DNA of 64,000 nucleotides from Haliclona indistincta (taxonomy: Eukaryota; Porifera; Demospongiae; Haplosclerida; Chalinidae). The stretch is from positions 11,327,152 to 11,391,151 of the forward strand of contig OZ024784.1 of the NCBI GenBank assembly GCA_964017065.1, in the 5' to 3' direction. A program made the translations under genes and the position numbers. How positions within the stretch are numbered: position 1 is the first letter of the stretch; each line of letters starts with the position of its first letter. The notes beneath the pieces are model-generated. The model was not told where the DNA came from. It saw nothing but the letters and a program-made list of their open reading frames with translations, and made no database searches. Positions 2,815 through 63,612 of this stretch are shown here, one piece after another.

Positions 2815-4497
2815 CTGCAGGCTGCGGCGGCAAACACTGCTTCACTGAGTGCCCAAAACGACGACATTCCCCCCGCAAAGCGACAAGCTCACAAACATGG
2901 TTGCATTCCCATATCCCTTCCCACGCACAACGTATTTAACCCCATTACCCCTGTTAAGATTGATAACCTCATTACGGAGCTAGCATCATATCCTGGCGAG
3001 CATTTAGCCCAATATTTAATCAACGGCTTCTCTAAAGGCTTTTCCATAGGCTATACCGGTCCCCACCTAGCCCATCGTACCCCAATCTTTCCTCTGCCCA
3101 TGACCACCCTCGAGTAATCTCATCATACGTCGAAACCGAATGCATGTTAGACCACACTGCCGGTCCATTTTCACTTCCACCTTACACTCCTTTCAACACA
3201 AGCCCACTGGGCGCTGTTCCTAAAAAATCCGGCAAATGGTGAATAAGCATGCACCTGTCGCACCCCCCATGCACAAGCGTCAATGACAGCATCCCAATTG
3301 AAGAGTTTTCTCTGCGCTACATAACTACTGATGCAGCTGCAGACGCAATCATGTCCCTAGGCCGTGGTTGCTACCTTGTGAAAGCCGACATAAAGTCTGC
3401 CTTCCGTTTATGTCTTATGAGAACAGCAGATTGGCCCATACTTGGCTTCCAGTGGGAAGGAAAGTTCTATTTTGATCGCGTCCTTCCCTTTGGTCTGCGA
3501 TCCGCACCTTTCACTTTCAACTGTCTCGAAGAGGCCCTGTGCTGGATCCTTAGACACAATTACTCAGTAGGCATCATCATGCACTACCTCGATGATTACC
3601 TCACAGCTGCACACTCACAAGCAGAATACGAAGCAAATCTCCATCAGCTCATAATAGTTTTCGGGCACCTAGGGATACCTCTTGCTGAAGAAAAACTTGA
3701 AGGCCCAAGCACGGTTATCCCCTTCCTTGGGATAGTTTTGGACTCGGTGCGGCTGGAGGCTCGACTCCCGGAGGACAAGCTTTCTCTCATCAAGGAGTCA
3801 CTGGGGGTGTGGCTTCTCAAAACTGCAGCTACAAAAAGAGAGCTCTTATCACTCATTGCCACCTCTCATTCACAGCAAAGGTGATTCCACCCGGTAGGAC
3901 ATTCTTGCGTCGGATGATCGACCTATCGACCTCTGAGCATCGGTTAGATGCCACAATTACCCTTACCGACCCGTTTCAAAAGGACCTACGCTGGTGGTAC
4001 AATTTCGTCGGCAGCTGGAATGGTCGCAGTTTCTTACTCTCACCAAAATGGATGGCAAACACCACATTGCAACTGTTCACAGATAGCTCAGGTGCGATCG
4101 GTTATGGCGGTCATCTTGGTTTCAGGGCTGATGGTTACCAGCCGATCAGAGAAAAATCATCCAGTGGAAAGAATTATATCCAATCGTCCTGGCTGCAGCA
4201 ACATGGGGTAGTCAATGGTCGACCAAGCGTATCCTCTTTCTATGCGACAACGAGGCTGTAGTGTCAATACTATGTTCTGGCACCTCTCACTCGCCCGAGA
4301 TTATGGAGCTTGTACGTAGTCTACACCTCTGCGCAGCCAAATTCCAATTCATGCACTCAGCAAAGCATATTCCTGGTATCTCTAATACCATCGCTGATGC
4401 TCTCTCTCGTTTCAATATGCAGGCGTTCCGGGAGCTAGTTCCAGATGCAGAACCACACCCAACTACCCCCACCTTACCTCCCTCAACCAACATATGA
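2815..4497 (+). pseudogene. DIRS-type retroelement, decayed RT and RNase H
   Basis: A broken pol-like region. The N-terminal part (2868-3114) encodes the pre-RT segment typical of DIRS elements (YLINGFSKGFSIGY) and ends at a TAA. GAVPKKSGKW near 3210 is followed by TGA, then the RT body: VKADIKSAFR, LPFGLRSAP, and a catalytic box YLDDY at about 3589-3603. A frameshift near 3880 leads into the connection and RNase H frames (QLFTDSSG near 4074). A second shift near 4150 leads to LCDNEAV and IADALSRF near 4390. No tyrosine recombinase follows, so the 3' part is lost. It is more decayed than the element at the window start. Confidence 0.8.
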
Positions 4498-8161: not shown

Positions 8162-8890
8162 CAGTGCTTCCAGTCTAGACATTCCAAAATTGCACATTTC
8201 ACTAACATGAAATGTTTTTACTCATAAAAACTGAACGATAGGTTTTATAGCAGTCAAACTTGGTGAGAAGGCTGATACATCCTTCTAGAGTAAGTGTGCT
8301 TAGTCTAAACTGCAAGCCTTACTTGATCTCAAAGATACAAATGGCGAACCCCTCCATCCACTCTACTGACAGTGTCTCATGCACTCCTCCATCAAAACGT
8401 ACATGTAGAGTAGTTGTGTCAACTGATTTATGCTAGTGTGTTTGTATTTGCTATGCGAGTTCTGTTTTGTGTTTGTTCCTATAATTATTGGTTGTATAAT
8501 AATGATGATTTGGTACAGTTATTCAGATTAGTCATTATGGTTGATTGGGAGTGTATAGTGTTTGTACACTAATGGAGGGGTCTGTTACCCATACACTCCC
8601 CTAGCATGGTTTTGTTGCATTGAATGCGCATGCTCTGGAAGTTAAGAGCTATGCTACAGTCTCACCCAGTTGTTGGCTAGGGGCTGGGGCCTGCAGGACT
8701 ACTGCTGTCCTTTGCTGAGCTACACAGCTCTCAGGCTCCAGTCCTGGGGTGAGCGCTAGTGTGTAATTGCTATTTGTTGTTGTTCAGCATATGGGGGAGT
8801 GGCCCATGTGCATTTACCAATCTATCTCTTTCCCTACGGGTGTCAGAGGCATGAAGGAGGTTGTCTCTCCACCTTCACACTACTGTTAAG

Positions 8891-9299
8891 AGTCAAGAAA
8901 AAGCGCTCCGCAGGCAAGTTGCCTTATGCCTTAGCTAATCACAGCTCTTCGCTCGTGGCTGTAACTTACACCGTCGGCGAATATGAGGTGCTGGTAGCAG
9001 CAGCACTCGCCCGATCTGTTCGTCTTCGTCTTAGTTATGACGTGCCAATGACTGTTGCCAGATTGATGACGTCAATTTATCTGCATATCCGATAGAATAT
9101 GCGGGAATGTACGGTCATCAACTAGGCTTGGAAAACGTCATTGATACGTCATAAACTAAGACGAAGACGAACAGAGCGGGCGAGTGCTGCTGCTACCAGC
9201 ACCTCGTATTCGCCGACGGTGTAAGTTACAGCCACGAGCGAAGAGCTGTGATTAGCTAAGGCATAAGGCTACTTGCCTGCGGAGCGCTTTTTCTTGACT
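8891..9299. repeat. Large hairpin, arms about 162 bp
   Basis: 8891-9052 is the inverted complement of 9137-9299 with few mismatches, and the spacer is 84 bp. Outer arm ends read AGTCAAGAAAAAGCGCTCCG and its complement. The structure fits a foldback-type MITE nested in the CAGTGCTTCCAG element. The open frame across 8799-9095 is a by-product of the arm sequence. Confidence 0.75.
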
Positions 9300-9326
9300 C
9301 GCAAAGTTGCAGATTTTTGAGTCTAA

Positions 9327-12184: not shown

Positions 12185-12470
12185 AGGTAACGATCAAAAG
12201 GATGTATGGATGTAGAGTAACAATGTAGAAATCTTTCACTGGCCCACAATGTAAACCAACAAGGAGGTAACAGAATGGTAACATGATTGGCTGGATAGTA
12301 GACCATGCATCCCTATATCAGCGGCTGCTGTACTGGCTTGTAGGCTTTGACAGAGAGCCTGCATGAAGTCCTCTATGCAGCCACTGATGAGGGATGCATG
12401 GTCTACTATCCAGCCAATCATGTTACCATTCTATGTTACCTCAGTGAAAGTTCTTTTGATTTCGTATATT
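12185..12470. mobile_element. Diverged copy of the AAAGGATGTAGGG hairpin MITE
   Basis: The arms share AATGGTAACATGATTGGCTG and GGTCTACTATCCAGCC with each other, inverted. The outer parts match the family ends (AAAAGGATGTATGG and TTCTTTTGATTTCG). It is more diverged than the copy at 39771-40182. I see nothing in 11787-12184. Confidence 0.65.
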
Positions 12471-14990: not shown

Positions 14991-15396
14991 TGGTGGCAGC
15001 GGTGCTCTCGGCTCACCCGGAGCAAATCTATTCCACGGCAGCGAAGTTCTCCTAGTGCTCTCGGCTCACCCGGAGCAATTCTTCTGACGGCGAAGCTCTA
15101 TCTCTCTACTGCAAGACGCCGAAGTTCTACCCTCTACTGCGGGACGGCGAAGCTCTCTCTCTCTCCACTGCGAAAAGCCGAAGTTCTACTCCTCCACTGC
15201 GGGACGGCGAAGCCCTACCTCTCTACTCTAAGACAGTTACTCTACTACACTGAAGGATGGCAGCAAAAGCAGGGTTACTCCACCGGAACCATTTCCATTT
15301 AGTAAACCAGAAGAGTGGTCAAGATGGATAAGACGGTTCGAGAGGTTTCGGATTGCTTCCAAACTGAACGGGGAGGAAGACAACGCGCAACTAAAC
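14991..15396 (+). promoter_or_regulatory. Gypsy-1 leader: candidate primer-binding site and tandem repeats
   Basis: The bases just after the LTR, TGGTGGCAGC, are the expected position of the tRNA primer-binding site. The other two related elements here have TGGTGTCAGC and TGGTGGCAGC at the same place. The leader then carries diverged tandem units: GCTCTCGGCTCACCCGGAGC occurs twice, 54 bp apart, and GACGGCGAAGC recurs through 15070-15215. In the coding frame, the conserved N-terminal gag sequence (KPEEWSRWIRRFERF) already begins upstream of the first in-frame ATG. Confidence 0.7.
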
Positions 15397-18300
15397 ATGC
15401 TCTTATACTGTATGGGCGACAGAGCTGATGACATCCTCCAGTCATTCAAGTATGCTGAGGGAGAACAAGAGGACTACGCCACTGTAAAGAAGAAACTAGA
15501 CGACTATTTCATTCCTCAAAGAAACGTCATCTACGAACGAGCTCTCTTCAATTCAAGAAAGCAGGAACCAGGAGAACCAGTGGAAGAATTCATAACAGCG
15601 TTACACACACTCGTCGAGTATTGCGACTATGGAGATCTCCGTGATCAGATGGTACGTGACAGAATCGTCGTGGGTCTCGCCAATGCCAAGTTATCAGAGA
15701 AACTTCAACTGGACCGGAAACTCACACTGGACTCAGCAGTCACACAAGCCAGACAAGATGAAACTGTTAGAAAGCAGCAAGCTACTTTAAGAGGTGCAAC
15801 AAAAGACAGCAGTGTCTCAGCAGTACACAAAGGAAAACACCTACCCAGAGGAAAGAAGATCGCTACGGGCAAGTCACAGCAAGACTCCAAGGGACCTCGT
15901 CAACCTACACAGTGTCCATGGTGTGGCAAATCACCTAAACATGATCGACAGCACTGTCCAGCAAGAGAAGCTAACTGCAGAAAGTGTAAGAAGAAAGGAC
16001 ACTACCAAACTGTATGCCGTTCTACTGCAATAGTTGCTACTGTCGAAGAAAAAGAGCCTAAAGAAGATGGTTTTCTAGGAGCCCTGACAGACACCAGTAG
16101 AGATCGATGGAACGTGACACTACAACTCAACGATCACCCTGTTCTATTCTGCATCGACACCGGAGCTGATGTCACTGCAATTCCTGAACGAGTCTGGAAA
16201 GACATTGGCAAGCCACGTCTACTTCCCTCCAACCGAAACCTGAAGTGCCCAGACACACACTCACTCTCAGTCAAAGGAATGTTGAAGGCGAAGCTGGAGA
16301 GCCAAACTCAACAAGCACAAGAAAGCGTGTACGTGGTGAGAGGCTTGACCAAATCACTCTTGGGTCGACTAGCCATAGAGCAGCTAAACCTTGTTTCTCG
16401 TGTTGCCGCCGTCAGTGAGCTACCCACTCTAGAGCCAACCACTGAGTTCCCGAAGCTGTTCACAGGACTAGGGAAGCTGGAAGGAGAGTACACTATTCAG
16501 CTGGATCCTGGAGCCAAACCATTTGCCTTGTCAACTCCGAGACGTGTTGCAGTACCACTCATGGGAGCAGTCAAGCAAGAGCTGGAACGAATGGAGACTC
16601 TAGGAGTGATCTCGAAAATCCAAGAACCAACTGACTGGTGTTCTGGAATGGTGGTAGTCCCAAAATCTGATGGCAAAGTACGAATCTGTGTAGACCTAAC
16701 CAGACTCAACCAAAGTGTACGTCGTGAAAGACATCCCTTGCCAGCAGTGGACCAAGTACTTGCACAACTCGCTGGAGCTACTGTCCTGAGCAAACTAGAC
16801 GCCAACTCTGGATTCTGGCAGATCCCTCTCTCACCTGACTCAGCCAAGCTGACGACATTCATCACTCCCTTTGGTCGATATTGTTTCAACCGCCTACCCT
16901 TCGGAATCTCTTCCGCTCCTGAACATTTTCAAAGAAGAATGTCTGAAATTCTAACAGGCTTGCCAGGAGTAGTGTGTATGATGGACGATGTGCTGGTACA
17001 TGGATCTACACGAGAAGAACATGATGCTCGCCTACGAGATGTGCTCAACCGTCTTCAAACAGCAGGAATGACCCTGAATGAAAAGAAATGCCAGTTCGCC
17101 AAGACATCACTAACATTCTTAGGCCATGTGGTAGGAAGATCAGGAATCAGCCCAGACCCAGAGAAAGTCAAAGCAATCACAGAGTTCCCTCAACCGACAA
17201 ACACTGGAGATGTCAGGAGATACCTAGGAATGGTAAACCATCTCGCTAAGTTTGTTCCGAATCTTGCAGAGACTACTCAACCGTTAAGAGAGCTACTTGT
17301 GAAGAACAGACTGTGGACGTGGACTGAGAACCAGCAGACTGCCTTCGACAAAACAAAACAGCTACTCACTCTCAGCCCGGTACTCACTCTCTTTGACCCT
17401 AACCTCGAGACTGCGGTCTCAGCAGATGCATCCTCTTTTGGTCTCGGTGCTGTCCTGAAACAAAAGAATTCAGATGGAGAGTACAAACCAGTGGCGTACA
17501 TCTCCAGATCACTGACCCCAACAGAGCAGAGATACGCGCAAATTGAGAAAGAAGCGTTGGCCTTCACCTGGGCATGTGAACGTCTCTCTGACTACTTGAT
17601 CGGACTACCATTTCACATTTGGACCGATCACAAACCTCTTGTACCACTGTTCAGTACCAAGGAGCTGGAACAGATCCCTATTCGAGTACAGCGTTATCGT
17701 CTTCGAATGATGCGCTTCTCATTCACTATTGCTCACAGGCCAGGAAAGGAACTGATCATAGCTGATGCACTCTCCCGATCTCCATCCCAGGATTCTACAG
17801 ATCCAGATAGCGATCTCCTACATCAAGAAGCAGATGCCTTCGTTCAAATGGTAATGCAGAGCCTGCCAGCCACAGAGAACAGGATAAAGCAGATCAGAGA
17901 TTGCCAACAACAAGATGAGACATGCAAGTTAGTCACCAGCTATTGCCTCTCTTCGGCATGGCCCGACAAGAAGTCAGCACCAGGTTCGGTGAAGCCATAC
18001 ATACCCCTTGCAGAAGAGTTCTCAGTTGAAGATGGACTGTTGATGAGAGGGTGTCGTATCGTTATTCCCCAGTCTCTACAACAAGAAATATTGACCAAGA
18101 TTCACATGGCACACCAAGGAATCACCAAATGCCGCGACAGGGCTAGACAGTCAGTATGGTGGCCAGGTCTGTCGACTCAACTAGAGGAACTTGTCAAGAA
18201 CTGTGAGATCTGTTGCAAAGAGCAGCACCAGAGAGCTGAATCACTCATACCATCCGAGCTACCGGAACTACCGTGGCAGAAAGTTGGTACCGACCTCTTT

Positions 18301-19167
18301 GAATGGAAGAACAACAACTACCTACTCATTGTGGACTACTATTCTCGATTCATTGAAGTCGTCAAGCTAAACAGAACAACTGCAACTGAAGTCATCAATA
18401 GGACGAAAACAATCTTCACAAGACACGGCATCCCTGAAGTTGTTTTCTCTGACAACGGACCTCAATACTCAGCTGAAGAATACGAGAAGTTCTCCCAGGA
18501 CTACCAATTCGAGCACAAGACCAGCAGTCCTTACTATCCTCAAGCAAACGGAGAAGCAGAGAGAGCCGTACGTACAGTCAAGGAATTGCTAGTGAAGAAC
18601 CAAGATCCCCATCTTGCATTGCTGAACTACCACTCAACCCCAATCCAAGGAGGAAGATATAGCCCCTCAGAACTACTCATGAGCCGGACATTGAGGACAA
18701 CTATCCCTACTACAAGAACACAAAGACTTCCCCGAGTGCCAGACCGAGAAGAAGTCCGAACCAGAGACCAGAAGATGAAGCAAAGACAGAAGAAGAACTT
18801 TGACAGTCATCATGGAGCCAGAACTCTACCAGTCTTGAAATCAGGAGACAGAGTATGGATCCCAACAAGGCAGAAGGAAGGAACCATTCAATCAGGAGTA
18901 GCACCAAGATCACTAGTCGTTACAACTGAAGATGGATCAGAACTTAGAAGGAACAGGAAAGATATCATCAAACTTCCACAAACCAGAGTTGAAGAACAGG
19001 AAACTCATATTGAAGAACGAGAAACTCAGGCTGAAGAACAGGATAGTCAGACCGAAGGAGAACAGGACAAATCACCAATCTCTAATCCGCAAACACCTCC
19101 ACAACCTCGTCGGAGTAACCGCATCCCTGCCCCTAGACAGCACTTCGCTCCTCTCATCGGACAATGA
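15397..19167 (+). CDS. Gypsy-1 gag-pol polyprotein (1,256 aa from first ATG)
   Basis: A single frame encodes the proteins for reverse transcription and integration. In order: a gag domain; two zinc knuckles (first Cys about residue 173, CRKCKKKGHYQTVC from 194); protease DTGAD near 254; RT with ICVDLTRLN, LPFGISSAP and catalytic MMDD near 529; RNase H with ADASSFG near 677; integrase with an H..H..C..C zinc domain (HMAHQG near 905, CEICC) and a D,D,E core (GTDLFEW, SDNGPQYS near 1018, Glu near 1053). It has an acidic Glu/Gln-rich tail and no chromodomain. No stop or frameshift falls within it. Conserved gag residues upstream of 15397 imply that the true start is earlier. It may be the ATG at 15257, which is in another frame, or a non-AUG codon. 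Confidence 0.93.
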   Translation: MLLYCMGDRADDILQSFKYAEGEQEDYATVKKKLDDYFIPQRNVIYERALFNSRKQEPGEPVEEFITALHTLVEYCDYGDLRDQMVRDRIVVGLANAKLSEKLQLDRKLTLDSAVTQARQDETVRKQQATLRGATKDSSVSAVHKGKHLPRGKKIATGKSQQDSKGPRQPTQCPWCGKSPKHDRQHCPAREANCRKCKKKGHYQTVCRSTAIVATVEEKEPKEDGFLGALTDTSRDRWNVTLQLNDHPVLFCIDTGADVTAIPERVWKDIGKPRLLPSNRNLKCPDTHSLSVKGMLKAKLESQTQQAQESVYVVRGLTKSLLGRLAIEQLNLVSRVAAVSELPTLEPTTEFPKLFTGLGKLEGEYTIQLDPGAKPFALSTPRRVAVPLMGAVKQELERMETLGVISKIQEPTDWCSGMVVVPKSDGKVRICVDLTRLNQSVRRERHPLPAVDQVLAQLAGATVLSKLDANSGFWQIPLSPDSAKLTTFITPFGRYCFNRLPFGISSAPEHFQRRMSEILTGLPGVVCMMDDVLVHGSTREEHDARLRDVLNRLQTAGMTLNEKKCQFAKTSLTFLGHVVGRSGISPDPEKVKAITEFPQPTNTGDVRRYLGMVNHLAKFVPNLAETTQPLRELLVKNRLWTWTENQQTAFDKTKQLLTLSPVLTLFDPNLETAVSADASSFGLGAVLKQKNSDGEYKPVAYISRSLTPTEQRYAQIEKEALAFTWACERLSDYLIGLPFHIWTDHKPLVPLFSTKELEQIPIRVQRYRLRMMRFSFTIAHRPGKELIIADALSRSPSQDSTDPDSDLLHQEADAFVQMVMQSLPATENRIKQIRDCQQQDETCKLVTSYCLSSAWPDKKSAPGSVKPYIPLAEEFSVEDGLLMRGCRIVIPQSLQQEILTKIHMAHQGITKCRDRARQSVWWPGLSTQLEELVKNCEICCKEQHQRAESLIPSELPELPWQKVGTDLFEWKNNNYLLIVDYYSRFIEVVKLNRTTATEVINRTKTIFTRHGIPEVVFSDNGPQYSAEEYEKFSQDYQFEHKTSSPYYPQANGEAERAVRTVKELLVKNQDPHLALLNYHSTPIQGGRYSPSELLMSRTLRTTIPTTRTQRLPRVPDREEVRTRDQKMKQRQKKNFDSHHGARTLPVLKSGDRVWIPTRQKEGTIQSGVAPRSLVVTTEDGSELRRNRKDIIKLPQTRVEEQETHIEERETQAEEQDSQTEGEQDKSPISNPQTPPQPRRSNRIPAPRQHFAPLIGQ

Positions 19168-20730: not shown

Positions 20731-22282
20731 GCTCCAGCGAGCTCATACCCCCTTATGACGCTCACAATTCGTGTGAGTTAGCAAGTCACCCAGACAAAGC
20801 CTTTGTATCTTGGCTGCTTTATTCAATCGACAATGGCGTATCCCTTGGCTACGCTGGCCCAAGAACCTCGCAGATCTCCCCCAACCTCTCCTCCGCAAGA
20901 GTTCACCCAGAGGTGATTGACCAGGAGCTAGCCAAAGAATGTGCAGCAGGACGCATACTTGGTCCCTTCTCAACACCTCCACTCCCCAATCTTCGCTGTT
21001 CCGGGCTAGGGGTGGTCCCAAAAAAGAATGGCAAGTGGCGGGTGATCATGCACCTCCAGGGGACAGCATCAACGACTTCATTGACCCACAGAAGTTCCTG
21101 ATGCACTATTCGTCGGTGGACGATGCAGTCCGTCTCATCCTCAGGGCGGGTCAAGGAGCCTTGATGGCGAAGGTTGACTTGAAAGCCGCCTTCAGAACGG
21201 TACCAGTACAGCGAACCGACTGGAACCTACTAGGGATCCACTGGAGAGAACAATTCTACATCAACACTTGCCTCCCCTTTGGATGCCGTTCCTTCAACCA
21301 GTTCGCTGAGGCCCTTCGTTGGATGCTGACTGAGAACTACCACATCCAAGCAATACACTACCTGGACGACTACTTCATGGTCGGTCCCCCAGAATCACCG
21401 GTCTGCTCACAGGCTAAGGACAGAACACTGCAGCTTTGCCAATCACTAGGCATGCCCGTTGCCACTGACAAAGTCGAAGGACCATCTACTACTCTCACAT
21501 TCCTGGGAATCGAGATAGCCTCGCGGCAATAGGAACTAAGACTTCCCACTGCAAAACTTCAGGAGCTCTTACTGGAACTAAATAGGTGGCAGGACCGCCA
21601 AAAAGCGACAAAACGGCAACTTCTATCACTGATCTGGAAGCTAGCTTTTGCTGCTAAAGCGGTTCCTGCTGGGTGGCTCTTCACACGACACTTGATCACT
21701 TTGTCCACATCCAAAAAGCGTTTACGCCATCACATTGACCTTTCCAGCAGAGCTCGTGCTAATATCAGGTGGTGGCAGCAATTTCTCCCGTCATGGAACG
21801 GCAGGTCCATCTTCCTAGAAGAGGCTTGGACAGATGCGGAGGACTTAAAATTTTCTTTACAATGATGCTTCAGGCTCCAAAGGGTTCGGTGCATATTTTG
21901 ATGGTGAATGGATTCGAGGTGACTGGCTTCCATCACAGCAACTCCCACTCCGCTCCATTCAATGGCAAGAACTCTTTGCCATCGTGGCTGCAACCATGAC
22001 TTGGCGCATCGAGGCTGAGAGGCAAGAAAATCTGTGACAATGAAGCCATTGTAATAGCATGGCAGAAAAAATCAGCCAAACATCCACACTTGGTAGAACT
22101 GTTCCGCCATTTTGTTCCTAGTAGCAGCTAGTTCAAACTTCACCATCTACCTCCAGCACATACCCGGCAAAAAGAACTCTAGCTGATGCTCCCTCTAGGA
22201 ACCAGATTAACCGTTTCTTTTCTCTAGTTCCTCAGGCAAACCCGAATCCCACTTTACTACCAGGCGGACTCTCACTGCTGTA
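20706..22282 (+). pseudogene. DIRS element 2: RT and RNase H, frameshifted
   Basis: The RT begins in one frame (VSLGYAGP, LGVVPKKNGKWRVIMHL) and shifts near 21056 to the next. It then reads AKVDLKAAFR, LPFGCRSF and YLDDYF near 21358-21375. A TAG at 21530-21532 interrupts the thumb. The connection continues (RQLLSLIWKLAFAAKAVPAG). A second shift near 21850 splits the RNase H (WQELFA near 21964), and more breaks follow before the PQANP end. At least two indels and several stops show that this copy is dead. Confidence 0.8.
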
Positions 22283-23179
22283 AATGAGGAACTGGATCAT
22301 CTGCTACAGCTAGCAGTATCCTCTTCCTCCGCCAACACATAACGCACAGGCCAGAGATAGTTTGTCTGGTTCTGCCATTCGATAGAAGCCTGTCATTTAC
22401 CAGCTACTAAGAAGACAGTGGCGCTGTTCGCTGCACACCTCGGCAGATCTGTCTCCCCCTCAACCATCAAGGTATACCTGGCTGCAGTATCCTTATCCCA
22501 TCGACAGGCGGGTCTCAGCAGTCCCTCCTGTCACAACCCAGCTCTGCGGCTGGCATTAAGGGGTCTCACAAGAAGGCAGGCTGGTGCAATTCGGCACGTG
22601 AGAGCACCCATCACAACAGGCATCCTCCAGCTACTTATCAGAACACTCCACTTGGCCAAGCCATGGTGCTACCTGGAGAGGACCATGCTGGCAGCAGCAC
22701 TCTGCCTGGGTTTCTACGGCTTCCTCATAGGGGGTGAGCTGATGCCCCCAAACAAGCACGCCTTCAACCCAAGGACCCACCCCACCTCAGCGGACATCAA
22801 CCTCTCAGCAGAGGGACTCCAGTTTATCATCAAGAATTCAAAGACAGATCAGCTGGGCAGAGGGCATACAATTTCACTATTCAGAAGCAAGGCTGCGTTC
22901 TGTCCAGTAGCCATCATAGAAAACTACCTGGCTAGGTGCAACTCAAGCCCCGACCGCCCTCTTTTCCTCCACTCCGACGGGACCCCAGTCTACATACGTC
23001 AATTCAGGGCTATGCTACGAGAGCTTCTCTCACTAGCCGGGCTCCCACCTGACGACTTTAACACCCACAGCCTCAGGATTTGAGCAGCCACTTCTGCGGC
23101 AAAAGGAGTCTCTGAAAAAGTCATCAAAAAGCTGGGACGGTGGCACAGCAGGACCTACAAGCTGTATATACGGAACTAG
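22270..23179 (+). pseudogene. DIRS element 2: tyrosine recombinase, broken
   Basis: The largest intact part is 22418-23083. It aligns throughout with the recombinase at 769-1818: VSPSTIKVYLAAVSLSHRQ, CHNPALRLALRG, NSKTDQLGRGHTI, THSLRI, LGRWHSRTY. Stops lie near 22340 and 22370, and the Gly codon after HSLRI is TGA (23081-23083). The first catalytic Arg position is Ile (GFLIGGEL, codon ATA near 22727), so the other DIRS copy here also lacks it. Confidence 0.8.
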
Positions 23180-23282
23180 ACATTGTACTCCCTATCACTC
23201 TCCTCTCTTGCTCAACCCCCTTTATCCTCTGTTGTACCTTGTATCATTACTTTGTATCCCACCTCGTGGGCGTATCAAAGGC

Positions 23283-23440
23283 ACCGCCAGGCCAATATAT
23301 TCCATACTGCCCCAACTGCAGGGCAATATGGAATATATTGCTGCCCTAGGGCAATATGGAATATATTGCCAGGGGACGCGATATATTGCCCAGGTGCAGA
23401 TATTGTCTGAAGGAACAGACAATATCTGCGGAAAGGGCAA
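23283..23440. repeat. Hairpin cluster with GGGCAATATGGAATATATTG repeats
   Basis: CAATATATTCCATACTGCCC is followed by two direct copies of its inverted complement (GGGCAATATGGAATATATTG), one near 23313 and one near 23349. Further right, CAGATATTGTCTG and CAGACAATATCTG form a perfect 13-bp stem around AAGGAA (about 23397-23428). The word ATTCCATACTGCCC also occurs in the CCCTCG palindrome at 24092-24225, so the two structures may be related. Confidence 0.6.
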
Positions 23441-23540
23441 GTAGCCCAAAAAAATTTAACGTGGTACAGTGTTGACCACGTGGTGGAAAAATAGGGGTAG
23501 GGCAATAGCCCTACCAGAAGGTACAGAGCACTATTGCGTG

Positions 23541-23963
23541 CGCTTTATACTGCAGTTTGCAAGTTGGTTGTCATAGTCAATGGTTCATGCTTGATAGTGT
23601 GGTTAGCACGGTTGATACAGTGTGGTTAACCTTAGCCATACATGGCTTCTCTGCATTACGCAATCGTTATCACCTGAGCCTGATAGCACATGCTCTAATT
23701 CTTGTGCGTTATCACAAGCAAGCTCGAGCTGTGTTTACTGTGGTGCAGTGGCTTTGCAAGATTGCTTCCAACAGAAGCAGCTTGCTAATAGCGATGGAAT
23801 TGAAATTAGAGCGTATGCTCTCAGACTCACGTGATAATGATTGCGTAATACAGAGAAGCCATGTATGGCTAAGGCTAACCACACTGTATCAACCGTGCTA
23901 ACCACACTATCAAGCATGAACCATTGACTATGACAACCAACTTGCAAACTGCAGTATACCGCT
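23541..23963. repeat. Hairpin MITE, arms about 165-170 bp
   Basis: 23541-23713 is inverted relative to 23798-23963; both arms carry CTGCAGTTTGCAAG, CATGCTTGATAGTGTGG and CATACATGGCTTCTCTG or complements. The loop of about 85 bp is unrelated. No coding region; the frames on both strands are mirror images of each other. Confidence 0.7.
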
Positions 23964-24091
23964 TAAGATTCCTTATGCTAGTGGGTTCCATTGTGGTCTT
24001 TACTATAGCACGTGTGATACTAAAAATAGCACAAGCGATACTAAAAACAGTACAATGCACGGGATACGCCCATGACGTGCGATACAAACAC

Positions 24092-24225
24092 GTTAAACAA
24101 CGGTCCCTCGGGCAGTACGGAATATCCACTCGTGCAATCCAATTAGACCCCTCGGGCTGCGCCCTCGAGCTCTAATTGGATTGCCCTCGTGTATATTCCA
24201 TACTGCCCTCGGACCGTTGTTTAAC
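24092..24225 (+). repeat. CCCTCG-type interrupted palindrome, locus A
   Basis: Six same-orientation hexamers lie at 24105, 24127, 24149, 24162, 24184 and 24206 (five CCCTCG, one CACTCG). The spacers between them are 16, 16, 7, 16 and 16 nt. The outer and inner 16-nt spacers pair as inverted complements across the centre. The central heptamer is GGCTGCG. A perfect 13-nt pair, GTTAAACAACGGT with its complement, bounds the structure. Folded, it would be a hairpin with evenly spaced 6-nt internal loops. Confidence 0.85.
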
Positions 24226-24513
24226 TAGTACGTGAACCCTCCTATTGACCCCCGCAAAAATTGCTTGTTAGTGATTCTAACGACGCAGCGGCGCCCTATT
24301 TGGAGAAAGTTGGGCGGTACCCTTGTGAACCTATTCCCAAAATTAGGTCAGCCGGATTGGAACCTGTGTTCCCAGTCCGGGGGCCTATGGGCGAGTCAGC
24401 ACTCGCAGAGCATCACCAGGGTATGCCAGCCTGACCCTCCATTATGCCAAACATAATAATTGAGATTGTTGGTATCATTAAAGCACTGTCACTAGGGTGT
24501 GTCTCGGCATTAA

Positions 24514-27354: not shown

Positions 27355-28111
27355 CTACATGAATAAATATAGAATGGAGAAAATGATAAACAGAAAGTGG
27401 AGTATATGATGTAGTTCAATGCTCGGCCATGGATCTTGACACAGTTCGTAAGCGAGAGTCAGTGGTGCGTATGTATTGGCGGTAGCAGTTATTTCGCCAT
27501 CGTCCCAAGTCTTGTATGGTGGTTGGATGCACTCCTCCTGGGTGGCTGCTGTGGCACCTCCAATGCATAGATTATGAGTTGAGTAAAGATTGGGGTTGGT
27601 GCCCACGGCAAGCAAACACTCATATAAGACTTTGGCAAAGGTGTGGCGGGTGAGGAAGTGGCCGGACCTAAAGTGAAAGAGGGGCCTGTTTCTGCAATGG
27701 TGTGACTGATCCAGGTACTGCTGGAGTAGATGGGACGGACATGTGGAGCAACACGTACATCAGATGAGAATGGATTGGCCTTGGGCTTGTTGATATGTTT
27801 TCGAGGCTCGGATGGTGACCTCTTCCTGAATCCTGGCTGGCAAGTATCTGACAGTTGAAGGAGCCATGGAAAGCGAGCGAAGTCTTTGCTGCTAGCATGT
27901 GGTGATGCTTGGGCACTGGATAGTTGTGCAACAGGTGGGAGAGGATGTGTTGCAGGGTGGAGTATGCAATTGGTAGGCAAATGCATCGCCTGCCTTCGTT
28001 GTGTTTAACTCCTCGAATTACCAGTGGTAACTGCTGGCCGGATAGGAGTGCTGGATTAAAGCCTTTGACGATGTAGTAGTGCTTGATGATGGCTGCTGTG
28101 TAAGTAGCAGT
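27355..28111 (-). pseudogene. Decayed DIRS-type tyrosine recombinase
   Basis: On the minus strand the N-terminal part reads TYTAAIIKHYYIVKGF, LVIRGVKHNEGRR and MLAAKTSLAFHGSF, matching the core-binding and first catalytic blocks of the DIRS recombinases elsewhere in the window. After frameshifts, the C-terminal part (STHNLCIGGATAATQEE) corresponds to THSLRIGAATSAA. The HSLR box is degraded to HNLC and no nucleophile region is preserved. The CGAGGG palindrome at 28112-28242 abuts the N-terminal end and may have interrupted it. Confidence 0.6.
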
Positions 28112-28242
28112 TATTCCATGCCTACCAGGTGTGTATACCATATACACGAGGTACTGTGCTAATAAACCCGAGGGCGTAGCCAGAGGGTTTATTAGCACAA
28201 TACCGAGTGTAAATGGTATACATACCAGGTGGGCATGGAATA
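28112..28242 (-). repeat. CCCTCG-type interrupted palindrome, locus C
   Basis: On the plus strand six hexamers of CGAGGG type lie at 28125 (CCAGGT), 28147 (CGAGGT), 28169 (CGAGGG), 28182 (AGAGGG), 28204 (CGAGTG) and 28226 (CAGGTG). The spacers are 16, 16, 7, 16 and 16 nt, the same spacing as locus A. Paired spacers are inverted complements with few mismatches (CTAATAAACC against TTTATTAG). The centre is CGTAGCC, the complement of GGCTACG. Outer pair: TATTCCATGCC and GGCATGGAATA. Confidence 0.85.
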
Positions 28243-28525
28243 GGTGACTTGTACCATAGCAACCATTGACATAATTAATGAGGTCCCATTAGTATCAGTA
28301 AGACAATTGTGTATAAAAAGTGAGCATACCTAGGCTTGCCTTACCTTTGGTATGGGTGAACCACTCCCAACCGAAGTTCTCTGTAGTCAATACTGTTTAC
28401 TGCGTGGAATGAGTCATTTGACTCTATTAGTGGCTTTACTGCTGGGAATTCCCTGGCGGTGCCTTTGATCTTGGAGGCTACTATGGTACAAGTTGATGTG
28501 GCTGAAGCTGAGACCATAGATATTA
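28243..28525. other. Unassigned sequence
   Basis: The minus-strand open frame at 28341-28586 has no motif I recognise and runs into the next TIR element. I make no gene call. Confidence 0.4.
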
Positions 28526-36929: not shown

Positions 36930-37091
36930 GGTACAAGTCATTCTATAGAAGTGACCTAAGAGCAAAGCAATGACATCAGTGTCTCTACACTGCACCACTA
37001 TTTTGTCTGTGTGGTTTTTAACACAATGGAAAACTATTCTGGTGTGTGCCTCTTCATGTAGTGCTTCAAGTGGTTCTGTGTTCTGAGTGAG

Positions 37092-37937
37092 ATGGATGAT
37101 TCAACCATTTCCTCATTTGAACCACTTGAAGCACTACATGAAGAGGCACACACCAGAATAGTTTTCCATTGTGTTAAAAACCACACAGACAAAATAGTGG
37201 TGCAGTGTAGAGACACTGATGTCATTGCTTTGCTCTTAGGTCACTTCTATAGAATGACTTGTACCCAGCTTTGGTTCAAAACAGGGACAGCTAATTAAGA
37301 AGAGGCAATATATTCCCATCCATGAAATAGTTAATCATTATGGGTTACAATTCAGATACAAGAGAGTCTATTCCAGCATTCCATGCATTGACTGGCTGTG
37401 ACACTACATCATACATTGCTGGCCATAGTAAGAAGTCTGCTTGGAAGACTTTTCATGATTGTTTTTTGATTGTTTTTTGGAAAACTTAGGAAAAGGTGAA
37501 TTGACAGCTGAGACAATACAGAATACTGAGCAGTTTATCTGCAACCTTACCAGTGTGAGAAATACCAATGAAGCAATATTGATACTTATTAACAAAACAT
37601 GGTCGCCAGAATTGCCACCGCCGACTATAGTGATGCTCTTTACTTTCACATTCGATGTGCTCATTATCAAGCAGCAGTGTGGAGGCAAGCTCATTTGGCC
37701 TATCCCACGATACCAAATCCAGAAGGCATGGGTTTGAAGATGGAAGAAGGAACACCAAAGCCTATGTTGATGTTATTGTCACCATGCAGTACCAGGATCC
37801 TGCAAAGAAGTTATCGCATGCAAGACTGCAAAAATGGATGTAAAACTTTACGTTGCAGGTGTAAAAAGGCAAACTTGAACTGCACAAGAGACTGCACATG
37901 TAACCTTGGAAATGAAATGTGCGATAATCATTTTTAG
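37092..37937 (+). pseudogene. CXC-motif multicopy gene remnant, right arm
   Basis: The pieces in order are EAHTRIVFHCVKNH and VVQCRDTDVIALLLGHFY (37092-37298), then a shifted frame with the remnant of an SYIAGHSKKSAWKTFHDCF-like block near 37410-37475. FLENLGKGELTAETIQNTEQ follows, then QAAVWRQAHLAYPTIPNPEG and the Cys-rich end CKTLRCRCKKANLNC. The CRDTDV acidic motif, the YQAxxWRxA block and the C-terminal CXC cluster match a multicopy family common in invertebrate genomes, with a PIN-like/asteroid-type core and a tesmin-like CXC tail. That assignment is from memory of the family. It has at least two frameshifts. The function is unknown. Confidence 0.65.
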
Positions 37938-41610: not shown

Positions 41611-42377
41611 AAATAATTATGTTCCAAATTAGTGTTGTAAAAGTAATGGAGTTTAATATTAGTTTAGTTATTGTTAAAGTCACACTGTCAGTGTCTTTTT
41701 AGTTATAGTTATAATTTGTTAACAAGAAAATTAAGCACATTTTAGTTTTAGTTATTGTGAATTATTGTTATTGTTATTAGCGTGCTATTAGTATTAGCGA
41801 GCTGTGTTGCTTTTTAATAGAAGTAACAGAATTGTCTTCTTAGCCGTGATAAGGTCTTGAAACATGTTGTATTACAGCAATCACATGAAAAAGATGCTAT
41901 CAATCATGCCTAACATGATTGGTTTTTGCATTTTTAATCACTTTACAATAACTAACTGTTGGTCTAATTTTAGTTTTAGTTATTAATAGTAATGTTCAGT
42001 CTGGTAATATTAGTTATAGTTTGTTATTGTTAACAATAATGATTTGACCCTTACTAAAATAGGATTTAGTTTTAGTTATTGTTAACATTTACAACACTAT
42101 TCCAAATACGGCAAGTGCTATTGGAGTGTGGGTACACCCATTTTCCTTGTAAAACGGGCAAGTAATAGCCAGGACACTGTAGATTATATTGTGCAAAGGG
42201 CAGCAAGAAAGAATAGTTCGGGTTTTCGCTTAGCTAATGTTGCATGGTACGTGTTGCATGCAGTGCAGACTGCAGAGTCGAGATTGAGTGCATTGCGGAG
42301 CTGCCCGGCACTTAGTTTTCTTTATACACTGTATTAGAATAAGTGCCAACTAAGTCATTAATAAAAAAAGAAAAGAA
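41611..42377. other. AT-rich TTAGTTATTGTT low-complexity tract and flank
   Basis: Degenerate TTAGTTATTGTTA-type repetition fills about 41620-42080, followed by ordinary intronic sequence. No gene. Confidence 0.55.
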
Positions 42378-42659
42378 ACAAGTAATAAAAACATTTTAAC
42401 CAAAATGGAAGAGATTTAGGGTTGGTACATTTATCGAAAAAGTATGGAAGGAAATGAAAAGGATTGTAACAATAGCAGTGTAATGCTACCTCCCTAAATT
42501 AACTGCTTTCGATAGTTGTGGTTAATTTAATAGGGAGGTAGCATTACACTGCTATTGTTACAATCCTTTTCATTTCAAAATCTTGTTTCCATACTTTTTC
42601 GATAAATGTACCAACCCTAAATCTCTTCCATTTTGGTTAAAATGTTTTTATTACTTGTT
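42378..42659. repeat. Near-perfect hairpin MITE, arms about 125-138 bp
   Basis: AACAAGTAATAAAAACATTT at the left is matched at the right. The arms meet at TAATGCTACCTCCCTAAATT and its complement, leaving a loop of about 20 bp. The left arm is slightly shorter, with a small deletion near AAGTATGGAAGG. No target duplication could be fixed. From 42660 to 43189 no gene is seen. Confidence 0.8.
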
Positions 42660-43189: not shown

Positions 43190-43376
43190 GAGACACAGCC
43201 AGTGGACTTTGCTCCCCAGTACAAGACCGGGTACCCATTTTACAGATCATTTTACAGATGGGTGGGCTGGTGGGCTGGAGTACTTTGATGTCTTTTCCTC
43301 CTCCTGCTCCGGGATTCGAACCAGTGTCCTCTGGGTTGTAAGCCCAAGACTCTACCAGTTGAACAACCAGGACACC
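43190..43376 (-). mobile_element. tRNA-derived SINE
   Basis: On the minus strand the head (about 43376 to 43304) has an A-box-like AACTGGTAGAG and a perfect B box GGTTCGAATCC. The anticodon stem is TTGGG/CCCAG with loop CTTACAA, giving TAC, a valine anticodon. The acceptor and T stems mispair in several positions, so it is not a working tRNA gene. The body continues with a GGAGGAAAAGACATC linker and a GTAAAATGGGTACCCGG-type stretch. It lies just downstream of the exon at 43434-43672. Confidence 0.65.
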
Positions 43377-45282: not shown

Positions 45283-45398
45283 TGGTGTCAGCGCGGGATT
45301 GAGCCTCTACCGAACTGAAGAAGGACCGACGAACTCGATTGCTGTCGAACTTCTCTACTGACCGACCCGAGTACCGACTGCGGAGTGACCAGTGACCA

Positions 45399-47890
45399 GT
45401 GCGGAGATCCAGTCTACTGAAGCGGATACCAGTACTGCGGAGAGAAGAATCAAGAATGACGGAAGCAAGAGTTGCGCCGCCTGAAGCCTTCAATTTCCGA
45501 AGACCGGAGGAGTGGACTAGATGGAAACGTCGCTTCGACCGTTACAGAAGTGTCTCAGGACTCAACACCAAAGACGATGCAGCTCAGATCAACACTCTGA
45601 TCTACTGCATGGGAGACGATGCGGAGGACATCCTTGTCTCATTCAGCCTTTCAGAAGAAGATGCAAAGAAGTACGGAACAGTCGAGAAAAAGTTCGACGA
45701 CCACTTCAATCCAAGAAAGAATGTCATCTTTGAAAGAGCGAAGTTTAACTCCAGGAAACAAGAGGATGGAGAGCCTGTGGAATCATTCATCACGGAATTG
45801 TACAAGCTATCTGAACATAGCAATTACGGAGATATGAGAAATGAGATGATCAGGGACAGAATTGTTGTCGGAATTAGAGATGCACGACTCTCGGAGAGAC
45901 TACAACTTGATCATAAGCTTACGCTAGATGACGCCGTTACTGCAGTAAGGCAGTCAGAGCAGGTCAAGCAGCAACAGACTGTTCTTAGAGGGACCGATGT
46001 CAAACCAGCGACTCGAATCGATGCAGTGCAGAAAGGACGCAAGCACAGACCACCACCTGATAAGAAGACAAGTGAACCAAACAAAGCTGAGAAGTGTGGG
46101 AAATGCGGTAAATCACCAGCACACAACAGAGAGAGGTGCCCAGCACGAGATGCTACATGTCACAAATGCAAGAAGAGAGGACACTTTCAAACAGTCTGCA
46201 GATCAGGAAAAGTGAGTGGAGTCAGCATTGACACAGACAAAACGGAACCAGATGCATTCCTTGGATCAGTTGGAAACAACCCTTGGACAGTAGACCTGAA
46301 GCTAGAGGACAGCCCAGTAACATTCTGCATTGACACTGGAGCAGAGGTCACTGTCATATCAGAGGAAACCTTGAAAGACGCAGGAAGCCCTACTCTGAAA
46401 TCACCCAAGAGAAAGCTCAGAGGACCAGATGATCACCCTTTAGCTGTTCTTGGACAGTGGAGAGGAGCACTCGAGCATGCATCTAAATGGACAAAGGAGA
46501 CTATTTTTGTTGTAGAAGGACTCAGTAGGCCCTTACTTGGACGTCCAGCCATTCAAAGCCTGCAGTTAGTCACACGGGTATCTACTGTCAACAAGGAGGT
46601 GACCCCACAACAGTAGTATCCTAGCCTCTTCACAGGACTCGGAGAACTGGGAGGAGACTACACTATTCACCTAAGAGAAGGAGCCAAGCCCTTCGCCCTA
46701 TCAGCCCCTCGCTGAGTAGCAGTGCCACTGATGAGTAAAGTGAAGGCGGAGCTAAACAGAATGGAAGAACAGGGAGTGATCAAGAGAGTGACAGAACCGA
46801 CAGACTGGTGCGCTGGAATTGTTGTGGTACCCAAAGCAGACAGCAGAGTACGCATCTGTGTAGACCTGACGAAACTCAACGAAAGCGTCATGAGAGAGAG
46901 ACACCAGTTACCAGCAGTCGACCAGACCCTTGCAAAGCTAGCAGGAGGAAAAGTTTTTTCGAAGCTCGACGCAAATTCTGGCTTCTGGCAGATACCATTG
47001 TCACCAGAGTCTGCCCCTCTCACCACTTTCATCACACCGTTTGGACGCTTTTGTTTTCAGAGACTACCATTTGGAATCGCTTCAGCACCAGAACATTTCC
47101 AAAGAAGAATGGAAGAGATCTTGATGGACATCCCCGGAGTTGTATGCCAGATGGACGACATCTTGGTGACCGGCAAGTCACACGAAGAACACGACAGCTA
47201 CTTGGAGATGGTTCTCGACCGATTGCAGAAAGCAGGACTAACACTGAACACAGCAAAATGTGAATTCTCAAAGACCTCAGTAAAGTTCCTTGGACACATC
47301 ATCGATGAAACAGGAGTCAGACCAGATCCAGAGAAGATCAGTGCTATCCAGAAGATCAAGACACCTACAAGCGTTAGTGACCTGAGAAGATTCCTTGGCC
47401 TGGTAAACCAGATGAGCAAGTTCATTCTGAACCTAGCGGAGATCACCAACCCCCTGAGAGAACTGCTAGTCAAGAACAGACAGTGGACATGGGACAAGAC
47501 GCAACAGAGTGCATTTGAGCAGATCAAGACTCTTTTGACTCACAGTTCAGTCTTAGCATTGTTCGACCCAAACTTGGAGACACTTGTCGCTGCAGACGCA
47601 TCCTCATTTGGTCTCGGAGCAGTTCTTCAGCAAAAGCAGCCAGATGGAGAGATGAAACCCGTAGCTTTCATTTCAAGATCGATGACCACTACTGAGAGGA
47701 GATATGCACAGATTGAGAAAGAAGCGCTAGCATTCACGTGGGCTTGCGAGCGACTATCGGACTACCTGGTTGGATTGAAATTCCACATAGAGACGGACCA
47801 CAGGCCCTTGATACCCTTGTTCACCACTAAGAACCTGGAGGAACTACCAGTGAGAGTTCAGCGATTCAGACTCAGAATGATGAGGTAGCA
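45399..47890 (+). pseudogene. Gypsy-2 gag-pol, truncated in RNase H
   Basis: Close relative of Gypsy-1. A likely start is the ATG at 45456 (MTEARVAPPEAFNF), before the RPEEWTRWKRRFDRY gag block. Zinc knuckles CGKCGKSPAH and CHKCKKRGHFQTVC follow, then protease DTGAEVT near 46333. TAG at 46614-46616 and TGA at 46714-46716 break the linker. RT is intact (CVDLTKLN, LPFGIASAP, QMDD near 47148) and RNase H starts (ADASSFG). The frame ends with TAG at 47886-47888, after RLRMMR, where homology to Gypsy-1 stops. Integrase and 3' LTR are missing, so the 3' end was deleted. Confidence 0.85.
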
Positions 47891-52094: not shown

Positions 52095-53098
52095 CTATAT
52101 CTACCACGGGGTCCTTGGGGAACAGTAGAAATGAATTGTAGAGTGGCGTTGCAGTTCACTACAAATTGCATACAACATGTTCTAAACATTGCCTAGAAAA
52201 CAAGCGATTTCTCAGTATTATTTCCACCAACACCCATTCCATTTGGAAAACATTTATAACTTACAAGGACAGGATCCATATTGAGATGACTCTTCACTAA
52301 GTTTCCTAACACTTAACTGTAAGCAATCCCATTGTGTTTCCAATACCTACAAAATTATTCACATGTTAAAATTAACTGAACTGATTTTTCACAATACAGT
52401 TTAAGGTGTTAGGTGTGAAGGTGTAAATTTTTGTTATGTGCAGAAAAATCACCATAAGTCTAAAACCGAATAAGGAATTTAGCTACAGTTTTTTTCTCAC
52501 TGGTTCACCAGTTAGTGGACGAACAGTTAAAATTTAAAGCAAACTTTTCCATTGAATAACAAACAAGCTATGCAGCTTTGCTTAAGCCAACTGTTTTTTT
52601 TTTACAATTTTGCTAATAACTTCTCTTCCATGACAGTTTGGTACATCTTGCATATACTAACACGAAGAACTGATGAAGAACTATGATATCACCTGTACCC
52701 GTCTTGCGAAGTAGTTTACACACGCTGATAGGCCTCCAAAGTATGCTACTAACAAAATTGTCAAAGAACAGACGGCTAAGAGTGAAAAGGTAGCTTTACT
52801 CGAGGGCTGCTAGAACGTGTACAGGATAAAGCGCCAAGCGATTCCTAGGCCAAAAATAACATCATTGTACGCACAAAATGGCGACGCTGCACCGATTCTT
52901 GGCTGTACAATCTTGAAAATAAAGTAGAAAGGTCACCAAATTAGTTATCTGTAACCTACACGCGGGCGATCGACACACACACACATCACTCTCGTACAAG
53001 ACCGGCTTCGCTTTCCCAGCAATACCTCGAACAAAAAAGCTACTTCTGCCATGGCGCCACAATGTGTAAGCCACGCCCCTAACAACAGATTAGGTATT
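52095..53098. other. Unassigned sequence
   Basis: AT-rich, with no gene or repeat I can support. Confidence 0.45.
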
Positions 53099-53260
53099 AG
53101 TTATTGCCCTCACGCGAGGGCATTAACCGACATTAATGACCGCGGGAAAGTCGGTTTCCCGAGTAACGGTCGAGGGCGCAGCCTGAGACTGTACGAGGGC
53201 AACCGACTTTCCCGAGGTCATTAATGTCGGTTATTGCCCGAGTTGTGTAGGGCAATAAAT
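53099..53260 (-). repeat. CCCTCG-type interrupted palindrome, locus B
   Basis: On the plus strand, hexamers of CGAGGG type lie at 53115, 53141 (CGCGGG), 53160 (CGAGTA), 53171, 53184 (TGAGAC), 53194, 53213 (CGAGGT) and 53239 (CGAGTT). The spacers are 20, 13, 5, 7, 4, 13 and 20 nt, mirrored around the central CGCAGCC, the complement of GGCTGCG. Spacer pairs are inverted complements (CATTAATGAC, AAAGTCGGTTTCC). The outermost pair is TTATTGCCCT with AGGGCAATAA. The plan is the same as loci A and C but with different spacer lengths and one more step. From 53261 to 54169 I see no gene. Confidence 0.85.
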
Positions 53261-54169
53261 GATTTATTACATAGTTCATCACTGTGAGCGCAATAACATT
53301 GCGAATTTTTGAAACTCGCAAAGACGCAACGGTCTGTTGCTATAGAAGACGCTACGCGCGGTCAATAACCTACATTAATGCCCTCGAATAGAGCAATCTG
53401 ATTGGTGAAAGATGATGTACTATGTAATAAGTACTAATCTTGCGTACGTAAATAAACAGTGCAGTACGTGTATGCGCGGAACGAATCTGCATGCAGATAT
53501 CAGATCCACCTGTTAGCTTTATGACGAAACGTACTTTCCTGGCGTCTGGCGTGAACACGTGGTTAGGCAGAGGAGTTGGATCTAGGAAAAAACGTAGTGT
53601 GTATGAAGGTGTTAATAATTTAAACATAGCAACAAAGGCTAATATTTGCACTAAAATATCTCCACAATGCAAGTGAATTCGGAAGTTTTACTTGGTAATA
53701 GTACTTATCTCAACCACAAAAACAAACTACTAGAAAATGAACCAAATTTGAGGGCTGACCCTTGAGGGTCGTACCACCTTAAATCAATAGTGCATAGACA
53801 TTGTAAAAAAGTCTGAGCAAGCTAGCTTGAGTTATTATAATTATAAGTTGAAAACCATGTATACCAATGAGCAATGAAGTGGGCATAGTAATTTAGAATG
53901 TTAAAGCATTATTGCCTAGTACCTTGGCGCGGGGAGGAGCACCTAGTTTCAAATGTCTACGCAAGAGCAAGATTATTCACGACATTCCATGAAAACCATG
54001 GTTATTTTGGCTGTTGTTTAACCCATTAAGCCCTAATGATGCAATTTAGAGTCATAATTATAGTTACTTCATACCTCATAACTTCATCAAAAATCATAGG
54101 TGCCAAACATTCCTAAACGTCCGGGACAGTTATGGATTTTCTGTCTGTAACCTGCGTCTCGCATGGAAG

Positions 54170-59403: not shown

Positions 59404-59613
59404 TGTGATATCTCAAAGATCTTTATTAGAATCAAGATGGCAATGAGCAATGATGTGATCAGCTGAGAATACTACTAACAGAACTGAGAATACAACAACC
59501 AACACATGACCTAACACAGACTTAAATAGAACCAGAGAGGTGACTGTGCATGAGGTGACAGTGTGTCTGTGATATTGTTCTGAATTTACAAGAGGTACAA
59601 CAAGGTCATGTCA
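59404..59613 (-). repeat. Gypsy-5 3' LTR (210 bp)
   Basis: The element is on the minus strand. This copy is identical, base for base as read, to 63613-63822. The purine tract on the minus strand (TGTGGGGAGGAAAG) directly precedes it. Target duplication TGCAG lies at 59399-59403 and 63823-63827. Confidence 0.93.
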
Positions 59614-63598: not shown

Positions 63599-63612
63599 CC
63601 TCGTCGCCAAAA
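63599..63612 (-). promoter_or_regulatory. Gypsy-5 candidate primer-binding site
   Basis: On the minus strand the bases after the 5' LTR read TTTTGGCGACGAGG. A TGGCGACGAGGA-type site is the expected position and form of a tRNA primer site in many animal Gypsy elements. Confidence 0.65.

Follow-up and report, generated by a model that had tools for sequence, protein, structure and literature searches.

The window analysed here, a 64,000-nucleotide stretch of the Haliclona indistincta genome (contig OZ024784.1, positions 11,327,152 to 11,391,151), contains three long imperfect palindromes, at 24092-24225 (locus A), 28112-28242 (locus B) and about 53101-53258 (locus C), and on folding each of them forms one long hairpin. 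The apex GGGC-TRC-GCCC is common to all three loci and the arms, as stated in the original prediction, are unlike one another. The palindromes are real as units, but each is only one end of a larger element: all three are the hairpin ends of interspersed mobile elements. In our view the palindrome probably serves a CryptonA-type DNA transposon, which encodes a tyrosine recombinase (YR), as its attachment site, and what the YR recognises is most likely a hairpin formed by one folded strand; loci A, B and C are best explained as short non-autonomous copies moved in trans. The elements and their parts, with the basis of each assignment in brackets, are as follows.

23252..24231, minus strand (the strand that would code the recombinase): element A, non-autonomous, hairpin at high coordinates (family alignment, exact positions, five paralogous empty sites)
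24092..24225, minus strand: hairpin of A, stem of about 56 bp, TC/TC on the plus strand and GA/GA on the minus strand (folding; covariance-model match 24123-24195)
24154-24164: apex of hairpin A, GGGC-TGC-GCCC (folding)
24080..24087, plus strand: inverse core CGATACAA on the inner side of hairpin A (copy of the boundary core, family-specific match)
23252..23265, plus strand: boundary core TTGTATCCCACC.. at the far end of A (family alignment, core comparison, exact positions)
23549..23955, no strand assigned: later insertion within A (absent from other family copies)
23546-23700 and 23804-23958: arms of the 155-nt inverted repeat of the insertion in A (inverted-repeat listing)
28104..28491, plus strand: element B (family F1), non-autonomous, hairpin at low coordinates (family alignment, positions, one paralogous empty site)
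28112..28242, plus strand: hairpin of B (folding; covariance-model match 28141-28213)
28249..28259, plus strand: inner core TTGTACCATAG of B (read from the sequence)
28478..28491, plus strand: boundary core CTACTATGGTACAA of B (exact positions)
53094..53430, plus strand: element C, non-autonomous, hairpin at low coordinates, core TTATTACATAG (345 bp shared with locus L058 at 96%; exact positions)
53101..53258, plus strand: hairpin of C (folding; covariance-model match 53135-53222)
53264..53274, plus strand: inner core TTATTACATAG of C (read from the sequence)
53420..53430, plus strand: boundary core CTATGTAATAA of C (sequence, exact positions)

Hairpin ends and their families

The hexamer count given originally, six of CCCTCG type, fits locus A (five exact copies, the sixth being CACTCG) and is loose wording for B and C, since the exact hexamer occurs only once in B and three times in C. 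Nor do the hexamers form unpaired bulges of six nucleotides, as had been supposed. Each reads CC-TC-GG, and the outer bases are paired with those of the identical hexamer in the opposite arm. Because CCTCGG pairs with itself except at the central TC, which faces TC, the real interruption is a 2x2 mismatch. Such a mismatch occurs about every 20 bp and reads GA/GA on one strand, TC/TC on its complement. In 13 folded hairpins GA/GA occupies 25 of the 27 2x2 loops, with YGAR on 50/50 loop sides, and it recurs in 17 of the 20 such loops of nine hairpins found later. YGAR is a favourable context for tandem GA pairs, and tandem YGAR mismatches are stable in DNA. No constant single-base bulge was seen in the folded hairpins.

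A search of the 144-Mb genome for the exact 19-base core CCCTCGGGCTRCGCCCTCG returned 115 copies, and the reversed control returned none. Folding was applied to 41 of the 115, namely locus A and the first 40 others listed, a set that includes one identical pair (L047/L048) and one near-identical pair (L045/L046). Stems reach at least 40 bp in 37/41 copies and at least 25 bp in 41/41, against a median of 14 and a maximum of 31 in a control with shuffled arms and the same cores. The palindromes are real and far above chance, and the cores come with mirrored arms rather than without them. The exact core was found 24 times on contig C1 (19.2 Mb) and only twice on contig C2 (19.2 Mb).

The copies group into families with about 80-99% identity within each; members of one family have their arms in common, and other families have different arms. 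Non-autonomous families are about 340-930 bp long. Several families are present rather than one ordinary family of miniature inverted-repeat transposable elements (MITEs), and the plan is conserved between them despite differing arm sequence, in line with the original proposal, which had also invoked a recombinase. Neither of the two results named beforehand as refuting that proposal was obtained. The arms, once thought to be free, do differ between families but are not free, every arm sequence belonging to a multi-copy family. Eight loci of family F3 align flush at both ends over about 920 bp with unrelated flanks, and the same flush behaviour is seen in the alignments of families A and F1; truncated copies also occur (L017 on the right; L033, L035 and L040 on the left). 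The varying left ends had suggested a 5' truncation of the LINE (long interspersed nuclear element) type, which was dropped as longer loci show flush copies with indels. Left ends were scored in 40 F3 copies taken from 86 candidates and in 40 F2 copies taken from 177, and left-end identity to the query was 40/40 for F3 and 10/40 for F2. The full copies that were aligned have TTGTA...TCAAAGGCACCGC, or a close variant, as their left end, and their right end, ...TAC, borders the hairpin on its outer side. In families F1, F2, F3 and A a short palindrome was also seen close to the far end, after the shared motif TCAAAGGCACCGC.

Compensatory change within the hairpins was assessed in a sequence-only alignment of ten hairpins from ten families. 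Here 94.5% of the cells pair and both partners have changed in 41 of 58 pairs, although the cells are not independent events, because the structure was derived from the same ten hairpins and certain rows are closely related to each other (A to L074, F2 to L070). The covariation score is 0.637, against 0.168 after shuffling and 0.065-0.092 after sliding. Selection thus appears to act on pairing: the arms drift yet keep pairing, and the mismatches stay. A covariance model built from nine hairpins gave no further match in the window beyond A, B and C at E up to 1.

Tyrosine-recombinase genes beside the hairpins

At L067 a broken YR gene starts beside the hairpin and reads away from it, and its pieces match Pfam QRICH1 (6.6e-11) and DUF3504 (6.6e-10). 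The nearest solved chain to the YR by profile is QRICH1 (4.8e-20), and in structure the YR is nearest to QRICH1 and Cre; IntI4 is also among the matches and is not taken as evidence of integron ancestry. The genome contains 140 CryptonA-type YR matches at E up to 0.001, of which 16 were sampled: L069-L074 come from the nine strongest, where L067 was the query and C1:10625215 and C1:9900194 were left out, while L138-L147 are weaker matches (28-41% identity) picked by hand.

A stem of at least 39 bp lies within 451 bases upstream (331 bases for L069) of 14 of these 16 genes, which are not all independent, because some hairpins are related (L141 and L142 to L074, L145 to L045). Among random 451-base stretches such a stem was found in 13/300 from the window, four of which overlap A-C, and in 4/300 from elsewhere. 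The covariance model matches 13 of the 16 upstream stretches at E up to 1, three of the 13 being in the model, and in 13/13 of these matches the GA orientation corresponds to the YR-coding strand. In five YR loci the distance from the hairpin to the start codon downstream is 50-147 bases. At L143 a near-perfect stem of 77 bp, far longer than the others, was observed upstream of a distant YR.

The YR gene and both ends are united in an intact element of 2,073 bp at C1:16152599-16154671. Its one long forward open frame, on the forward strand examined, is the YR, which carries the catalytic motifs CLRGG, NHSLR, GHR and YER. In an alignment of 36 homologues chosen from 120 listed, H333, R336, H359 and Y367 are invariant and R209 is conserved in at least 90%; the YR of the elements retains the catalytic R, H-x-x-R, H and Y, unlike the domesticated genes. 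No relatives of the YR were confirmed in viral or genome contig collections, which are without eukaryotic genomes of other species. Three identical-scoring YR matches lie exactly 2,925 bases apart (C2:18947960, 18950885 and 18953810), and are apparently a tandem array of one element.

Insertion, proposed mechanism and alternatives

A joined-flank search found paralogous empty sites, five for A and a single one for B, in which the sequence continues across the junction without gain or loss of bases, and insertion occurs without target duplication. The flank sample comprises 69 left flanks, of which 67 are unique, and 47 right flanks; C, L046 and L048 were excluded and rows without a recognised end were dropped. 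On the left, TA is found at -9/-8 in 47 of the 67 unique flanks, against 1-13 at 18 other offsets. On the right, T stands at +2 in 44/47 and A or G at +3 in 47/47, counts that lean to canonical copies because the right end was recognised by its own TAC; no right end was present at the expected distance in 8 of 20 new F3 copies. Since TA stands at -9/-8 on the left and T at +2 and A or G at +3 on the right, the target is mostly TA-N7^N-TR: eight bases separate its two half-sites, and the element enters one base away from an arm. Of 38 paired insertions, 24 fit this target on both sides. As regards terminal direct repeats, the left TTG and the right NTR are not systematically equal. The last six bases of the element itself stand at the right end in 33/35 copies and are resembled on the left in 2/67. 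Element B interrupts a repeated sequence (window 27668-28288, minus strand) with an open frame that is YR-like by eye, and an uninterrupted paralogue of this repeat is found at C2:11270167-11270246.

A second copy of the boundary sequence stands, inverted, on the inner side of the hairpin. In family A the inner core matches the boundary core of its own family at 7/9 bases against 3-4 elsewhere, and in F3 at 8/9 against 4-5 elsewhere and 7 in the autonomous relative. Because the inner side of the hairpin bears this inverted copy, a circle would read inverse core, palindrome, core. The joined form of inverse core, palindrome and core is present in the genome at L019, which is directly followed by the left end of another element (by motif), and L030 looks joined to the next element in the same way (by eye); the right flank begins with TTG in six copies.

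In the mechanism that we propose, the element, read in the orientation of the YR, would consist of the hairpin, the inner core TTGTATCA, the YR gene (absent in short copies) and the inverted core TGATACAA, and joining into a circle would place the hairpin between the inverted cores TGATACAA/TTGTATCA. The YR would cut beside one core at TACAA^GTA, and the cut end would be joined to a TA-N8-TR target at a point in the 8-base spacer one base from its edge, so that no duplication results. Recognition would involve the hairpin folded in one strand, probably the YR-coding strand, with the 5'-YGAR-3' tandem mismatches about two helical turns apart as the marks of that strand. A single strand would be exchanged and replication would complete the reaction, as proposed for integron cassettes. 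What the data show directly is the nature and boundaries of the elements, their target, the covariation and the tie to YR genes; the circle, the folding of a single strand and the exchange of one strand are inferred. We favour the use of a folded strand on four grounds: the GA/GA marks, the constant way in which they are oriented relative to the gene, the covariation, and an exchange that is one-sided.

Several observations weigh against this proposal. Neither a circle, nor activity, nor strand use was observed, and the evidence is confined to the genome of one species. A single core type is common to F1, F2 and L019, which core matches fail to tell apart. Among the YR loci, L144 is without a hairpin in the stretch examined, the hairpin of L069 is broken (18 bp), and the stem of L138 is perfect but without GA loops. 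In 20 of the 67 left flanks TA is not at -9/-8. The predicted energy prefers the GA strand in only 32 of the 41 folded copies, and energy alone therefore does not choose the strand. Finally, the ends are exchanged in L012, an F1 copy with target-like bases on the right and element-like bases on the left, which is the pattern to be expected if two strands reacted with an overlap of 6 bp; it is perhaps a rare other outcome of strand exchange.

Because both ends are exchanged in L012, a two-strand alternative stays alive, in which the same transposon would use its attachment site as a duplex. The arms would then hold ordered sites for the recombinase or accessory proteins, or form an extruded cruciform, and integration would be completed, as in Cre or Tn916, by two full strand exchanges that overlap by 6 bp. 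Cre acts on loxP half-sites eight bases apart and inserts one base from an arm, which is also the geometry of the target here; moreover, mismatches about two turns apart could be duplex sites, and the GA strand is not always the more stable one. However, duplex sites would not require the arms to keep pairing under sequence change, and the exchange of unlike overlaps should yield both outcomes, whereas the ends are one-sided in 33/35 right and 65/67 left cases. We regard the duplex version as unlikely but worth keeping in mind. It seems very improbable that the hairpin is an RNA or regulatory element of the YR gene (promoter, translation, small-RNA decoy) and that the true end is the core alone: its position shortly before the start codon in five YR loci would suit such a role, but non-coding short copies keep the hairpin intact and the insertion boundary lies at its outer foot.

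A non-autonomous Helitron or other HUH element (IS200-like, Replitron) with a terminal hairpin, linked to the YR by chance, would likewise have a hairpin near one end, no duplication and short copies. Yet the ends are not TC...CTRR, the TA-N8-TR targets are two-sided and the element with both ends codes for a YR (HUH proteins were not searched for), and such an origin is to our mind extremely improbable. The original prediction had the palindromes growing around their core, and arms that are complementary despite divergence would indeed accord with growth or homogenisation of the arms through template switching or copying from one arm to the other. Copying is disfavoured because it would erase the GA/GA or TC/TC positions, which persist, and copies insert whole. 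Growth around the core is not supported: the palindromes came in already complete, as ends of mobile elements, since the family copies are flush and the empty sites of A and B are uninterrupted, and we find the copying account scarcely conceivable.

Neighbouring features and comparison with known systems

Two other YR-coding stretches in the window have Pfam phage-integrase matches, and the hairpin model has no match there at E up to 1. Open frames of YR type (phage integrase) and of reverse transcriptase were found at 706-1818, 3243-3884, 20921-21532 and 22361-23083, the YR match of the last being below the Pfam cut-off, and these frames probably represent DIRS-like retrotransposons. Further inverted repeats, long and almost perfect but not built on the GA-mismatch plan, lie at 36930-37265, 8890-9300, 42377-42659 and 12272-12432 and are probably ordinary inverted-repeat elements. 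Long gag-pol-like open frames at 15232-19167, 45396-47888 and 59606-63631 look by eye like LTR (long terminal repeat) retrotransposons. A weak Rfam tRNA match at 43301-43372 (minus strand, 31.8 bits) was not reported by ARAGORN.

Some known classes were considered for the hairpin-ended elements and dropped: the end of a DIRS-like retrotransposon, as the one long forward frame of the intact element is the YR, not a reverse transcriptase; a DDE-type MITE, as six empty sites are without target duplication; a Helitron, as the ends are TTGTA and TAC and the target is TA-N7^N-TR, not TC/CTRR ends between A and T; and a Replitron or IS200-type HUH element, as neither direct terminal repeats nor duplications were seen here. 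Replitrons, in the part of the source available to us, have direct terminal repeats of 5-11 bp and duplications of 2-8 bp (PMC10741241). Helitron2, as far as it is described in the accessible part of PMC3627910, is similar in its terminal hairpins, asymmetric inverted repeats and compensatory changes, and differs in its RepHel protein and in its termini.

Judged by its protein, the element is a Crypton, and by its hairpin end it would be, as far as literature searches show, an undescribed Crypton variant. In the portion of Kojima and Jurka (2011, PMC3212892) available to us, no terminal repeats are reported for animal Cryptons, and the main text is without "palindrom" or "hairpin"; no description of a hairpin or palindromic end of an animal Crypton was found in the literature searched either (titles and abstract openings, with partial coverage). 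The element resembles CryptonA as presented there in its YR of the QRICH1/DUF3504 lineage, the absence of any other protein seen, abundant non-autonomous copies and the lack of target duplication. Unlike the animal Cryptons described in the same portion, it has inverted cores with a mismatched hairpin between them, and its target is defined. The trait "no terminal repeats" does not hold here, and is descriptive rather than defining. With fungal Cryptons, again following that portion, it shares the character of a YR-only transposon, but their 4- or 6-bp terminal direct repeats were not found here. Termini of a salmon Crypton are noted to resemble the ancient vertebrate repeats Eulor5 and Eulor6 (PMC5753468, in the part available).

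End recognition by animal Cryptons was left open because no terminal repeats had been found, and the question is now testable because the data provide an end that can be recognised, a rule for the target, empty sites and one intact element. Should the folded-hairpin mechanism prove general, it would account for the ends that have been missing from animal Cryptons, from which the ZMYM, QRICH1 and KCTD1 genes derive. QRICH1 and ZMYM2 are among the vertebrate regulators that arose from the YR lineage found here. For other genomes, the hairpin offers a pattern by which such elements can be annotated.

The likeness to Cre-loxP lies in the target, with its spacing of eight and insertion one base from the arm; the hairpin site has no counterpart in loxP, and there is no homology here between the spacers of element and target. 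Integron cassettes, in the accessible part of PMC3053210, are similar in that the joined (circle or tandem) form has an inverse core, a variable palindrome and a core, the cassette ends at one core, a tyrosine recombinase acts and joining is head-to-tail (here at L019, by motif). The cores here are TGATACAA/TTGTATCA or variants, not RYYYAAC/GTTRRRY, and the mismatches are tandem YGAR, whereas attC has single extrahelical bases on one side (PMC3053210, same part); because core letters and extrahelical bases differ, the site is not an attC. Unlike the cassettes described there, the elements have stems of 39-77 bp, a YR inside the element and scattered targets. The scales are, in our view, evenly balanced on whether they represent a eukaryotic counterpart of integron cassette recombination, in which an animal YR would act on a YGAR-marked, folded single-stranded hairpin between inverted cores, exchange one strand with scattered TA-N8-TR targets and, where sites are re-used, join elements head to tail. 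To our knowledge, single-strand attachment sites of tyrosine recombinases are known only from bacterial integrons; if the folded-strand reading is true, they exist in an animal too.
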